Shown: in pieces, positions 7,729 to 10,919 of the stretch
How positions within the stretch are numbered: the first letter of the stretch is position 1
How the letters are laid out: each line of letters begins with the position of its first letter
Origin: Bacteroidales bacterium
GTDB lineage: Bacteria > Bacteroidota > Bacteroidia > Bacteroidales > UBA932
NCBI GenBank assembly: GCA_016291185.1
Contig: JAEFAI010000003.1
Coordinates: 46,423 to 110,422 of the forward strand
Direction: 5' to 3'
Length of the DNA: 64,000 nt
Translations under genes and position numbers: made by a program
The notes under the pieces: generated by a model
What the model was told of the DNA's origin: nothing
Database searches by the model: none
Seen by the model: the letters and a program-made list of their open reading frames with translations, nothing else

Positions 7729-7752
7729 TCATCCCGGCCGGATTCCCTTGTC

Positions 7753-7809
7753 ATCCCCGGCTCCGACCGGGGATCTCATTTCCTTGTCATGGCCGACCTG
7801 ATCGGCCAT
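7753..7809. repeat. Two REP-like palindromes in tandem
   Basis: 7753-7774 has arms ATCCCCGG/CCGGGGAT around CTCCGA. 7789-7809 has arms ATGGCCGA/TCGGCCAT around CCTGA. Both are preceded by GTC and followed by CTC. They lie just after the transglycosylase stop and could also end its transcript. Confidence 0.75.
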
Positions 7810-7935
7810 CTCCTTCTTGTCGGTGCTTCCGGCAGAGCCTGTGGGGCTGCAGCCATCCAAGCAAAAAAAGCTTGTCTGACTGCACTCCACAGTCTATTTC
7901 TGCCTCCAGCACCCGCAGCAGCCGCTCCCAACGCA

Positions 7936-8010
7936 CGGCCCCCGCACACCCCCCGACAGCACAGGCAAACGGGCGCAGGCTCCCGCACATCCTCCGCACC
8001 GGCTGCCGCA
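7936..8010 (+). repeat. A-family GC-rich dispersed repeat, copy 1
   Basis: The core reads like CCCCCGACAGC-CAGGCAAACGGGCGCAGGC and continues into CACCGGCTGCCGCAG. The same core occurs near 9306-9398 (inverted), 17575-17665, 26386-26475 (inverted) and 36350-36440. It is non-coding as far as can be seen. Confidence 0.75.
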
Positions 8011-8035
8011 GAACAACGACCCGCCCGCATACCCG

Positions 8036-8145
8036 TCATTCCCGGCTTGACCGGGAATCTCCTGCCTCGTGGCATCATACCCGCATATCCGTCATGCCCG
8101 ACCCTTTGCTGTCATGGCCGACCTGATCGGCCATCTCCCGCCTCG
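8036..8145 (+). repeat. Palindrome-pair unit, inverted relative to 9180-9290
   Basis: Two palindromes (8038-8058 and 8114-8134) are joined by a shared spacer that includes GCCTCGTGGC and ACCCTTTGCTGTCATG. The reverse complement of 9180-9290 matches this unit almost base for base. Confidence 0.75.
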
Positions 8146-8196
8146 TGGCACACCCTTGGCATCTCCTCTGGATCAGCCACCATTCCCACCGCAGAT

Positions 8197-8376
8197 TCAA
8201 ATAAACGCTTGTTTTATAACAGCGTACTGCTCGATCACTTTGCTTCCTTTGTAGATGGCCCAGCCTTTCTTGCCGCTGGGCAGTGTGATGCCACCGTACC
8301 AGCAGCCGGGTCGTTTGCCGGCCATTCTGGCCCGTTTCAGGGCATCTTCTGGGTTCTTGAAATAATATGTCGTCAT
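8197..8376 (-). CDS. Possible small hypothetical protein (59 aa)
   Basis: From the ATG at 8376 this reads as a compact 59-residue protein with a sensible composition (KNPEDALKRARMAG, PSGKKGWAIYKG). It is AT-richer than the repeats around it, and that contrast is the main reason to consider it real. An in-frame ATG at 8430 would add 18 residues. I do not recognise the family. It lies between two repeat clusters and could be the remnant of a larger gene. Confidence 0.35.
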   Translation of the reverse strand: MTTYYFKNPEDALKRARMAGKRPGCWYGGITLPSGKKGWAIYKGSKVIEQYAVIKQAFI

Positions 8377-8719
8377 CGCCGATTCCGTTTTGCCTGCAAG
8401 GTACGGAATCAGTTTGTCAGGTCTTGGCACGAGAGGAGAATTAAGCAGCGGTCGCGCCCCCCATAGCGCGCATGTCTTATACTACGTATTGGAGATACCC
8501 ATTGTTCTGCTATTGGAGATTTGGAGACCTATCAAGAAGATACCCGCTGTCGCGGAAAATGGGGACAGCTCTCCGCCGCCGGCCTGCCGGCGCTCGTTGT
8601 CGGGCACTCACTTCGCGCAAGGGCGGGGGAGCTGCGCCACCGGAGGCCATCTATTGGGCAATGTTGATTATGATGTTCCGCTTTGTTTAGCATGGGATTA
8701 TTTACTATCTTGGTATAAA

Positions 8720-8824
8720 ATTCCCAGTCAGACCGGGAATGACGGATATGCGGGCATGACGGCAAGAGAGAGGAGATGGCAGGATAGTGCCTCGAGGCAG
8801 GAGATACCCGATCAGGTCGGGCAT
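8720..8824. repeat. Left palindrome pair of the GIY-YIG element
   Basis: 8720-8740 has arms ATTCCCAG/CCGGGAAT with one mismatch. 8804-8824 has ATACCCGA/TCGGGCAT with one mismatch. They are joined by a spacer ending in GCCTCGAGGCAGGAG. The orientation is the same as in the pair at 9192-9288. Confidence 0.7.
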
Positions 8825-8842
8825 GACAGTAAGGGGTCGACC

Positions 8843-9214
8843 ATGACAAAAAAGAAAACTATGGGAAAGAAAGGGTACATTTATTTTGTTACGAACAGGT
8901 ATAATACTGTATTGTATACCGGTGTGACGAATAGTTTGGTTCGGCGTTCTGCCGAGCATGGAGAGCACCAAGGCTCGGATTTCACACAGAGATACAACTG
9001 TGGCAAACTCGTTTATTTTGAGGTATTTCCAGATATGGATCAGGCGATTACGAGGGAAAAGCAACTCAAGCATTTCAAGCGAGAGTGGAAGGATCAACTG
9101 GTGAATGTAGTGAATCCGGAATGGCGGGATTTGAGGGACGGGATGGTGGCGGATCCGGAGGAGAGGCCAGGGGCGTGCCTCGAGGCGGGAGATGGCCGAT
9201 CAGGTCGGCCATGA
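8843..9214 (+). CDS. Small GIY-YIG family endonuclease
   Basis: This is a COG2827/YhbQ-like GIY-YIG domain protein of 123 residues, predicted to nick or cut DNA. The GIY-like strand is YIYFVTN and the YIG-like strand is LYTGVTN. The catalytic Arg lies in LVRRSAEH, and a conserved Glu in ITREKQLKHFKREWK. A second start at 8861 is possible. It is AT-richer than its flanks. The last dozen codons (CLEAGDGRSGRP) and the stop are encoded by the adjoining palindromic repeat: the TGA begins on the last base of the palindrome at 9192-9212. Palindrome pairs lie on both sides, so gene plus repeats may be one mobile unit. Confidence 0.85.
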   Translation: MTKKKTMGKKGYIYFVTNRYNTVLYTGVTNSLVRRSAEHGEHQGSDFTQRYNCGKLVYFEVFPDMDQAITREKQLKHFKREWKDQLVNVVNPEWRDLRDGMVADPEERPGACLEAGDGRSGRP

Positions 9215-9308
9215 CAGCAAAGGGTCGGGCATGACGGATATGCGGGTATGATGCCTCGAGGCAGGAGATTCCCGGTCAAGCCGGGAATGACGGGTGTGCG
9301 GGCATGAC
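9176..9308. repeat. Right palindrome pair of the GIY-YIG element
   Basis: The palindromes are 9192-9212 (ATGGCCGA/TCGGCCAT, loop TCAGG) and 9268-9288 (ATTCCCGG/CCGGGAAT, loop TCAAG). Each is preceded by GCCTCGAGGC-GGGAG or GCCTCGAGGC-AGGAG and followed by GAC. This is the inverted counterpart of 8036-8145. Confidence 0.8.
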
Positions 9309-9398
9309 GGATTTGGCGGCAGCCGGCGGGGAGGAAGTGCGGGGGCCTGCGCACGTTTGCCTGCGCGGTCGGGGGCCGTGGGGAGGGTGCGTGAGGAC
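9306..9398 (-). repeat. A-family GC-rich dispersed repeat, copy 2
   Basis: On the minus strand this matches the other A copies (CGGCCCCCGACCGCGCAGGC then AAACGTGCGCAGGC). It is followed on the plus strand by a GGGCA-T-run-TGCCC hairpin at about 9448-9465 and by another palindrome at 9526-9546. The 26 kb copy has the same order. Confidence 0.75.
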
Positions 9399-9525
9399 GG
9401 CTGACGCAGGCCTTCGGAGCCGGATAAAGCGGCAAGGTGGCGCTGGACGGGCATTTTTCTGCCCGTACGGCGGCAGCCCTGCCGCGTCCGGCGGAGAAGG
9501 CGATACGAGTGCCTCTAGGCAGGAG

Positions 9526-9546
9526 ATCCCCGATCAGGTCGGGGAT
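9526..9546. repeat. REP-like palindrome ATCCCCGA/TCGGGGAT
   Basis: This is a perfect 8-bp stem with loop TCAGG, preceded by GCCTCTAGGCAGGAG. Its right arm is the start of the 21-bp tandem repeat that follows. Confidence 0.75.
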
Positions 9547-9632
9547 GACTGATTTAGCGTCGGGGATGACTGCTTTAGCGTCGGGGATGACTGATTTAGC
9601 GTCGGGGATGACTGATTTAGCGTCGGGGATGA
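9538..9632 (+). repeat. 21-bp tandem repeat, about 4.5 copies
   Basis: Units at 9538-9558, 9559-9579, 9580-9600 and 9601-9621 plus a partial 9622-9632 read GTCGGGGATGACTGATTTAG followed by C. One unit has GCT in place of GAT. The array appears to have grown from the right arm of the palindrome at 9526-9546 and reaches the 3' end of rarA. Confidence 0.9.
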
Positions 9633-9635
9633 AGC

Positions 9636-10919
9636 TTACTTTTTGTAGTACTTCGGCCAGCAGGAGGAGAGGTAGGCGCTGAGGCGGTCTTCCTGCGGGT
9701 TGGGCTGAGGGTCGTAGAAGACCGTGCCGGAGAGCTTTTCGGGGAGGAATTCCAGGTCGGTGAAGTGGCCGGGGAAGTCGTGGGCGTACTTGTAGCCATC
9801 GGCGTAGCCGAGGTCCTCCATCAACTTCGTGGGCGCGTTGCGCAGGTAGAGCGGCACGGCGGCCGTCTGATCTTCTTTCGCGGCCGCAAGCGCCTTATCG
9901 ATCGCCAGATAGGCGGAATTACTTTTAGGAGAACTTGCGAGGTAAACAGCACATTCGCTCAGCGGGATGCGCGCCTCCGGCATACCGATGGAATGGACGA
10001 TGCGGAAGGTCGCGTCCGCCAGGAGCAGGGCGTTGGGATTCGCCAGGCCGATGTCCTCAGCGGCAAGGATGCAGAGCCGCCGGGCGATGAAGAGGGGATC
10101 CTCGCCGCCGTCCAGCATGCGCGCCATCCAATAAACCGCGGCGTTAGGGTCGGACCCACGCACGCTCTTGATAAAGGCGGAAATAATGTCGTAATGCATC
10201 TCGCCACCCTTGTCGTAGATGGCCACGTTCTCCTGCAGGCACTCCGTGACGCTGCGGTTGTCGATGACGATGGCCTCGCCCTTACTGAGCTGGGCATCAA
10301 CCACGATCTCAAGGATATTCAGCAACTTACGGGCGTCTCCGCCGCTGTGCCGGAAGAGCGCTTCCGTCTCACGGACCTCGATCTTGCGTTCCTTCAGCAC
10401 CTCGTCCTCGCGCAGCGCGCGGTCCAGGAGCAGCTGCAGGTCAGCCACCTCCAGGGACTTGAGCACGAACACCTGGCAGCGGGACAAAAGGGGAGTGATC
10501 ACCTCAAAGGAAGGATTCTCCGTCGTGGCGCCAATCAGGACAATGGTACCTGCCTCCACAGCGCCTAGCAGGGCATCCTGCTGCGCCTTGTTGAAGCGGT
10601 GGATCTCGTCGATGAAGAGGATTGGCGCACCCGTCTGGGAGAAGAGCGACTTGGACTTGGCCGAGTCGATGACCTCGCGCACTTCCTTCACCCCGGCACT
10701 GACCGCCGAGAGGGTATAGAAGTCGCGCTCCAGACTGCCGGCGATAATCCGAGCCAGCGTGGTCTTGCCGACACCCGGAGGGCCCCAAAGAATAAAGGAA
10801 GACAAAGCGCCGGAGTCCATCATGTTCCGCAGGATGCATCCGGGGCCGACCAAATGCTGCTGACCGACGTAATCGGACAGCGATTTAGGCCGCATTCGCT
10901 CCGGAAGAGGCGGTAACAT
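9636..10919 (-). CDS. rarA: Replication-associated recombination protein A (RarA/MgsA AAA+ ATPase)
   Basis: RarA is a clamp-loader-like AAA+ ATPase that acts at stalled replication forks. The 427-residue form from the ATG at 10919 starts MLPPLPERMRPKSL. Walker A GPPGVGKTT is at 46-54 and Walker B LFIDEIHRF follows; the C-terminal tetramerisation region contains the family stretch DLGYADGYKYAHD. A GTG start at 10940 would add seven residues without family resemblance. The 3' end abuts the 21-bp tandem array. It is transcribed toward the repeats, with no partner gene downstream. Confidence 0.95.
   Translation of the reverse strand: MLPPLPERMRPKSLSDYVGQQHLVGPGCILRNMMDSGALSSFILWGPPGVGKTTLARIIAGSLERDFYTLSAVSAGVKEVREVIDSAKSKSLFSQTGAPILFIDEIHRFNKAQQDALLGAVEAGTIVLIGATTENPSFEVITPLLSRCQVFVLKSLEVADLQLLLDRALREDEVLKERKIEVRETEALFRHSGGDARKLLNILEIVVDAQLSKGEAIVIDNRSVTECLQENVAIYDKGGEMHYDIISAFIKSVRGSDPNAAVYWMARMLDGGEDPLFIARRLCILAAEDIGLANPNALLLADATFRIVHSIGMPEARIPLSECAVYLASSPKSNSAYLAIDKALAAAKEDQTAAVPLYLRNAPTKLMEDLGYADGYKYAHDFPGHFTDLEFLPEKLSGTVFYDPQPNPQEDRLSAYLSSCWPKYYKK

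Follow-up and report, generated by a model that had tools for sequence, protein, structure and literature searches.

In REPtrons, RAYT (TnpA-REP) tyrosine transposases of the HUH/Y1 type are found with GTAG REPs, one small DNA-processing gene lying between its own REPs and many solitary or paired REPs being present genome-wide. Another superfamily, the CGTC-tagged REPs, was described by Di Nocera et al. (2013; PMC3733652), in whose accessible text these repeats are said to 'apparently lack a dedicated transposase'. According to that text they carry an unpaired CGTC or TGTC tag at one end, a stem of 8-9 bp starting with AT, a loop of 4-5 nt and a short tail, mostly CCA; they are mostly intergenic, commonly form paired units and include Neisseria dRS3 and Rickettsia RPE-4 and RPE-6, and neither an associated transposase nor a GIY-YIG link is reported there. 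Within the literature in reach, which excludes bioRxiv and most subscription journals, no paper linking GIY-YIG with REP or CGTC REPs was found, broader searches being judged by the best 15-20 papers that each listed. In the portions searched by term, PMC1564403 contains neither 'palindrom' nor 'hairpin' and PMC12306157 has CGTC once, within a reference.

The window analyzed here, a 64-kb stretch of Bacteroidales DNA, encodes a single-domain GIY-YIG nuclease amid palindromes (Table 1). As in a REPtron, a small gene for a DNA-processing enzyme sits between REPs, but the enzyme is unrelated to the HUH/Y1 type and the REPs belong to the other superfamily. GIY-YIG homing endonucleases share with this element the nuclease domain and a selfish distribution; they differ in that the element here is single-domain and repeat-bounded, no intron or intein having been seen around it. 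A sequence-only reading of the window had placed the gene among palindromes, with its stop codon inside the right-hand one, and the domain match and palindrome scan bear this out. It had also described a palindrome pair on each side; both pairs were recovered, but the four palindromes nearest to the gene share one direction, and therefore no inverted bracket is formed.

Table 1 Features of the GIY-YIG locus, with positions in the window
Feature	Position	Strand	Basis
CGTC-type REP, 6-nt loop	7750..7774	+	palindrome scan
CGTC-type REP	7786..7809	+	palindrome scan
Inverted truncated second copy: decayed GIY-YIG 3' end, two REPs, flank	7939..8186	-	inverted repeats and alignment
CGTC-type REP inside inverted truncated copy	8035..8058	+	palindrome scan
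CGTC-type REP inside inverted truncated copy	8111..8134	+	palindrome scan
CGTC-type REP, one stem mismatch, left-hand pair with 8804-8827	8720..8743	-	palindrome scan
CGTC-type REP, one stem mismatch, immediately 5' of GIY-YIG gene	8804..8827	-	palindrome scan
Single-domain GIY-YIG nuclease gene, 123 aa	8843..9214	+	PF01541 E 9.5e-15; last codons and stop inside REP 9192-9215
Partner arm: GIY-YIG gene 3' end, two REPs, flank	9140..9386	+	inverted repeats and alignment
CGTC-type REP, overlaps GIY-YIG gene 3' end	9192..9215	-	palindrome scan
CGTC-type REP	9268..9291	-	palindrome scan
CGTC-type REP	9526..9549	-	palindrome scan

The window palindromes fit the published CGTC-tagged superfamily. They consist of GTC, an 8-bp stem starting with AT and a loop of 5-6 nt (5 nt in all near the gene but one), and 9 of the 12 such units in the window fall in 7750-9549, two of the nine with one mismatch. 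Among 108 perfect units from the window and the fetched loci, 97 have C or T immediately before GTC, and dispersed copies occur in relatives, with at least 29 matches in the genome G005 and 99 exact copies in a Neisseria gonorrhoeae record. Their tails depart from the description available in PMC3733652: those of the window read CTC(C), and in the material as a whole CTC and CTA outnumber CCA, which occurs in only 53 of 271 elements near genes of the nuclease branch defined below. In many other lineages the outer stem is 5 bp long and encloses further structure (132 of the 271 elements), which lies outside the 8-9 bp definition. The GTCAT...CTCC motif of the window is one among many stem classes. 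Further GTC-tagged palindromes lie far from the gene (25193, 26577, 29828 and 2388), three of the four with longer stems. A second short palindrome, TGCCTCGAGGCA or similar, adjoins several REPs (at about 8790-8803, 9177-9190, 9253-9266 and 9511-9524), and a tandem 21-bp repeat (GTCGGGGATGACTGATTTAGC; 9538-9636) begins inside REP 9526-9549, in its second half, and looks like an outgrowth of it.

The sequence-only reading had noted a palindromic unit at 8036-8145 as an inverted copy of the right-hand one. This is correct as far as it goes, but the unit belongs to a larger inverted repeat whose arms (8023-8186 and 9140-9303) are 164 nt long and 95% complementary, with an additional inverted pair at 7939-8009/9316-9386 (85%). 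Alignment shows the left arm to be an inverted stretch in which a decayed GIY-YIG 3' end precedes the same palindrome pair and flank; the window therefore carries two copies of the unit, the second truncated. An ORF of 77 aa between the arms (8197-8430, minus strand) has no match in Pfam, NCBIfam or PHROGs. On balance it appears probable that the window contains a two-copy, partly decayed, REP-bounded GIY-YIG mobile element, the CGTC counterpart of the RAYT 'REPtron'. The window is a single contig, so that chance or an assembly artefact might be invoked; the same arrangement in many independent assemblies, some of them marked complete, makes this explanation exceedingly improbable.

In a genome scan, an REP with an 8-bp stem lies no more than 67 bp from the matched domain at every one of the 13 Bacteroidota loci (L001-L013). 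The remaining four loci (L014-L017) lack an REP of this class, and in two of them, both from Chloroflexota, the gene is surrounded by a different GTC...ATC palindrome class; the 20 kb of L014 contain 11 such elements, 10 of which sit within 435 bp of the gene. With a narrow 8-bp detector and the covariance model R1 the association had seemed confined to part of Bacteroidales, an interpretation rejected as a detector limit because the 5-bp outer stem and inner structure of other lineages had been missed. A wider detector (GTCA[TC], a stem of at least 5, an interior of at most 36 nt, then C), for which shuffled sequence from seven other loci gives a chance rate of 0.046 hits/kb, places an element within 450 bp of the gene in 27 of 33 loci (the best 29 of the Bacteroidales search plus four further ones from G005 and G014) and in 31 of 46 loci from Chloroflexota and a plasmid collection, in L144 apparently by chance. 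By the same measure no element was found at 14 further GIY-YIG loci from REP-rich genomes, four of which (L102, L109, L110 and L111) fall inside the REP-associated branch of the tree.

This tree comprises 104 GIY-YIG proteins over 103 columns, six of 110 rows (L049, L118, L134, L143, L158 and L161) having been left out for length (<70 or >200 aa); it was built quickly, is unrooted and leaves many forks unresolved. It replaced an NP.W motif as the test of group membership, which had mis-sorted several rows. One branch (SH-aLRT 99) unites 84 of the 104 proteins and spans Bacteroidota, Chloroflexota, one cyanobacterium and alpha-, beta- and gammaproteobacteria; a GTC-tagged palindrome lies within 250 bp of the gene in 67 of the 84 (17 have none), compared with 1 of 20 (L144) outside the branch. 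Of the 15 Chloroflexota and plasmid-collection loci that lack an element, four belong to the branch and seven do not, and four are absent from the tree. Nesting in GTC-tagged palindromes is hence a feature of one single-domain GIY-YIG nuclease group and extends over several phyla. A Planktothrix unit (L146) has a type IIL restriction gene on one side and drmA on the other, a DISARM-type neighbourhood.

REPs are mostly intergenic, according to the accessible part of PMC3733652, as are the filled sites described below, and they could have landed wherever insertion is tolerated, the nuclease gene often being young and situated in such tolerant DNA. Against such hitch-hiking, palindrome density falls from 5.4-7.5/kb within 100 bp of the gene to 0.17/kb at 1-1.5 kb, the GIY-YIG genes outside the branch lack the association, with only 3 elements in total around 22 such loci, and in two records described below the cognate REPs occur solely at the gene. 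We regard it as very unlikely.

The sequence-only reading had proposed to check whether related genes lie beside palindromes more often than chance, and compared with control ORFs they do so far more often. In the long loci a palindrome occurs within 250 bp of 24 of 27 branch genes vs. 10 of 152 control ORFs (at least 120 aa), and on both sides of 17 branch genes vs. 2 control ORFs; L158, absent from the tree, is counted here as a branch gene, and without L156, L158 and L159, where no palindrome is nearby, the figures become 24/24 vs. 10/143. No palindrome was found upstream of UvrC-length GIY-YIG genes in REP-bearing genomes (0/11; one of 12 was skipped, its flank missing). A later, Bacteroidota-wide draw of 395 genomes was searched with the second GIY-YIG protein of G005, keeping the 250-bp rule; 152 genomes matched at 1e-15, and at the loci from the best 30 of these an element was found within 250 bp in 23 of 28 new loci and on both sides in 19 of 28 (L201, which is L109 and was already counted, has no element and is left out). 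Density in this sample was 5.43/kb within 250 bp vs. 0.17/kb beyond 500 bp. In the motif-defined set the flanking REPs had appeared to be oriented outward (upstream 35 + and 14 -, downstream 32 - and 15 +); the later set (11/10 and 13/8) shows no clear bias, and outward orientation was dropped as a general trait.

Palindrome architecture, i.e. an 8-bp or a 5-bp stem, follows the nuclease tree, with 6 changes compared with a mean of 22.6 after shuffling (lowest of 300: 17), although common descent of whole genomes can be a partial source of this match. The stem class changes 15 times vs. 23.6 in the 8-bp group and 18 vs. 21.1 in the 5-bp group. Cognate elements were counted in 20 genomes. Genomes in which the gene is flanked by ATTCC elements (G271, G370, G294 and G378) have 63, 55, 126 and 23 of the ATTCC class and none of the ATTGC class, and those with an ATTGC-flanked gene (G014, G054, G367 and G343) have 22, 24, 40 and 23 of the ATTGC class and none of the ATTCC class; in G242 one paralogue lies among ATTCC and one among ATTGC elements, with 60 and 76 copies. 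The pairing is not strict, as counts are mixed despite an ATTGC-flanked gene in G080 (16 ATTGC, 10 ATTCC), G191 (8, 18) and G222 (2, 13), and G279 and G373 have 76 and 40 ATTGC elements, yet another class or none at the gene locus read. Overall, stem class varies by nuclease lineage.

Elements of the 5-bp class near branch genes contain CGNAG in 76 of 132 cases (shuffled mean 17), and the interior starts and ends with GA in 72 of 132, a pattern that we take to be that of very stable DNA mini-hairpins. Such mini-hairpins are treated in PMC10527192. The resemblance hints that DNA may be the working form of these repeats. DNA folding gave no excess stability for the class in a single example (z -0.2), and the DNA-hairpin reading is therefore based on the sequence pattern and its likeness to mini-hairpins.

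At the level of whole genomes the co-occurrence is weak, the window protein having a match in 13 of 26 REP-rich Bacteroidales genomes vs. 82 of 221 others; REP-rich here means at least 7 matches of R1, which detects mainly one REP class, and counts above about 30 per genome are lower bounds. Eight REP-rich genomes (G038, G083, G096, G152, G200, G219, G224 and G257) each show a single GIY-YIG match, which falls in a reading frame of roughly 600 aa taken to be UvrC. With at least eight REP-rich genomes having only a UvrC-length GIY-YIG gene, REPs either outlive the nuclease gene or need none, gaps in drafts being possible, and this argues against a strict dependence of REPs on the gene. The sequence-only reading would have been weakened both by close homologues lying away from palindromes and by palindromes being common in genomes lacking the gene. 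The former was not encountered among the 13 close homologues (13 of 13 beside palindromes), but the latter was, in 13 of the 26 palindrome-rich genomes. DUF559 nucleases were tried as an alternative REP partner in REP-rich genomes; a clear REP was present in 1 of 13 loci (L173, at 154 bp) and in L170 a match of a different, longer kind at 121 bp, and they were dropped as a general answer. A DUF559 gene (L169, 2018-2428) was also seen between sufB and sufC of Sphingomonas parapaucimobilis, and with the gene of L173 it may represent a second repeat-linked nuclease.

Empty and filled sites, which the sequence-only reading had proposed to align, both exist: gene and palindromes are present or absent at three syntenic sites. 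In Azospirillum lipoferum the gap between sufB and sufC holds REPs, the gene and REPs, while for the 11 other Azospirillum records listed only the flanks match, gene and REP both being absent from the three empty sites read. A Shinella strain has another copy with another REP class at the same sufB-sufC spot, as judged by DNA similarity, the record being unannotated (L154, L168). The Sphingobium site is matched whole by 7 records and in two pieces without the gene by 4. When one filled and all four empty sites were read, two of the four had a single palindrome with GTC at both ends, one of them perfect, and the other two (L167, L197) a different, hairpin-like sequence at the same spot. Similarly, at the site where S. 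meliloti Ak57 carries the gene together with a truncated second copy, Sinorhizobium K101 shows one fused palindrome. Fused palindromes at empty sites can be targets or scars of deletion. They recall IS1272-type insertion, which, to judge by the title of PMC5678879, replaces an inverted repeat; IS1272 differs in being an insertion sequence with its own transposase gene, and the likeness is to that title, not to its sequence. No target-site duplication was seen by eye in three filled/empty comparisons with diverged junctions. The reading of the window as a minimal mobile element, first drawn from position, is thus supported by the palindrome association and by these sites.

Whether the nuclease mobilises the palindromes or homes into them, the two alternatives offered by the sequence-only reading, is not separated by sequence, but two records bear on it. 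Counting exact matches only, the cognate pattern is present two times in an Aeromonas caviae record (4.94 Mb) and two times in a Neorhizobium plasmid (1.76 Mb), in each case with both copies adjoining the gene; palindromes can therefore arrive with the gene. Two of the records filed as plasmids (NZ_AP026896.1 and NZ_CP119140.1; 4.94 and 2.17 Mb) resemble chromosomes. The main rival explanation is a homing parasite, in which the nuclease cuts REP loci and break repair copies it into REPs that are already there, the REPs themselves having spread otherwise. GIY-YIG domains are known from homing enzymes (PMC1564403, accessible part), REPs are found in genomes without the nuclease gene, and a doubly tagged single palindrome stands at two of the four empty Sphingobium sites and at the one empty Sinorhizobium site read. 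However, the Aeromonas and Neorhizobium records, in which the sole exact cognate REPs adjoin the gene, speak against it and favour palindromes as the element's own ends, the three empty Azospirillum sites lack an REP, and so does the surrounding of rarA, the site of the window gene: neither a GIY-YIG gene nor an REP lies within 1.5 kb on each side in 9 of 9 relatives (those of 13 with a full rarA match; one flank ends 211 bp past the gene). We therefore consider homing rather unlikely.

The genomic address of the gene is rarely conserved. Among 14 loci with up to two neighbours per side, only L004 and L005 share any neighbour, several loci meeting contig ends, and some genomes have up to 8 matches at 1e-15, while most close relatives have one clear copy. 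The protein itself is a genuine member of the GIY-YIG superfamily, with the PF01541 match, a fold match to 1zg2 and catalytic residues kept: in the branch alignment two Tyr, Gly, Arg and His are present in 84/84 sequences, Glu and a C-terminal Asn in 83/84. It has no match in NCBIfam and one weak match of unknown function in PHROGs (E 0.0055). An AlphaFold2 model from 15 sequences (mean pLDDT 85.8, pTM 0.75) has its best fold match in 1zg2 (E 2.1e-4), followed by weak resemblance to the UvrC N-domain and Slx1; 1zg2 is also the sole solved structure matched by sequence at E <=0.01 (3.9e-7). This is the UPF0213 protein BH0048, which shares the fold but differs from the REP-associated branch, where most members have a C-terminal Asn-Pro-x-Trp stretch (Pro 75/84, Trp 76/84) that the outside group lacks. 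A homologue search with the window protein found 3850 proteins, and by a hand-written motif list 40 of the best 120 of these have REP-like peptides at their ends. The gene is under strong purifying selection, with dN/dS of 0.09-0.12 in four pairs, dS exceeding 1 in three of them (the pair L006/L007, misaligned, was left out).

Such selection, the single clear copy in most close relatives and the weak resemblance to Slx1 and the UvrC N-domain would also suit a structure-specific nuclease in the service of the host, which trims REP hairpins or cruciforms while the REPs at its own gene act in regulation, with no movement involved. Presence and absence at syntenic sites, rarely shared neighbours, several paralogues in some genomes and truncated extra copies (in the window and in Sinorhizobium) are difficult to reconcile with such a function, which we consider improbable.

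The best reading is that REP-nuclease-REP units are probably mobile, that the nuclease may process its own hairpins and that REP families would be the miniature offspring of these units. The nuclease would recognise its cognate hairpin, probably in extruded or single-stranded DNA, and would nick at or near the GTC tag, and the REP-gene-REP unit could then be cut out or copied with the help of host repair; REPs found elsewhere, singly or in pairs, would be miniature copies that this enzyme has moved in trans. In the N. gonorrhoeae record, the 99 exact copies include 21 neighbouring pairs at <=120 bp, 16 of which are (+,-) at 78-83 bp, a miniature inverted pair of nearly fixed size. Our confidence is evenly balanced on the broader proposal of a new class of mobile element, in which a GIY-YIG nuclease of about 95 residues would move itself without a transposase via hairpins at its own ends, each lineage would read its own stem, and miniature derivatives of the element would make up the CGTC-type REP families in many phyla, Neisseria dRS3 among them.

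CGTC REPs occur in several phyla, and the enzyme that spreads them has been an open question since 2013 (PMC3733652, accessible text). With a named candidate enzyme and a partner hairpin for each lineage, this question becomes directly testable. If the proposal is true, a second, unrelated enzyme type would stand beside the RAYTs in the REP story, and a large group of uncharacterised small nucleases would gain a role.
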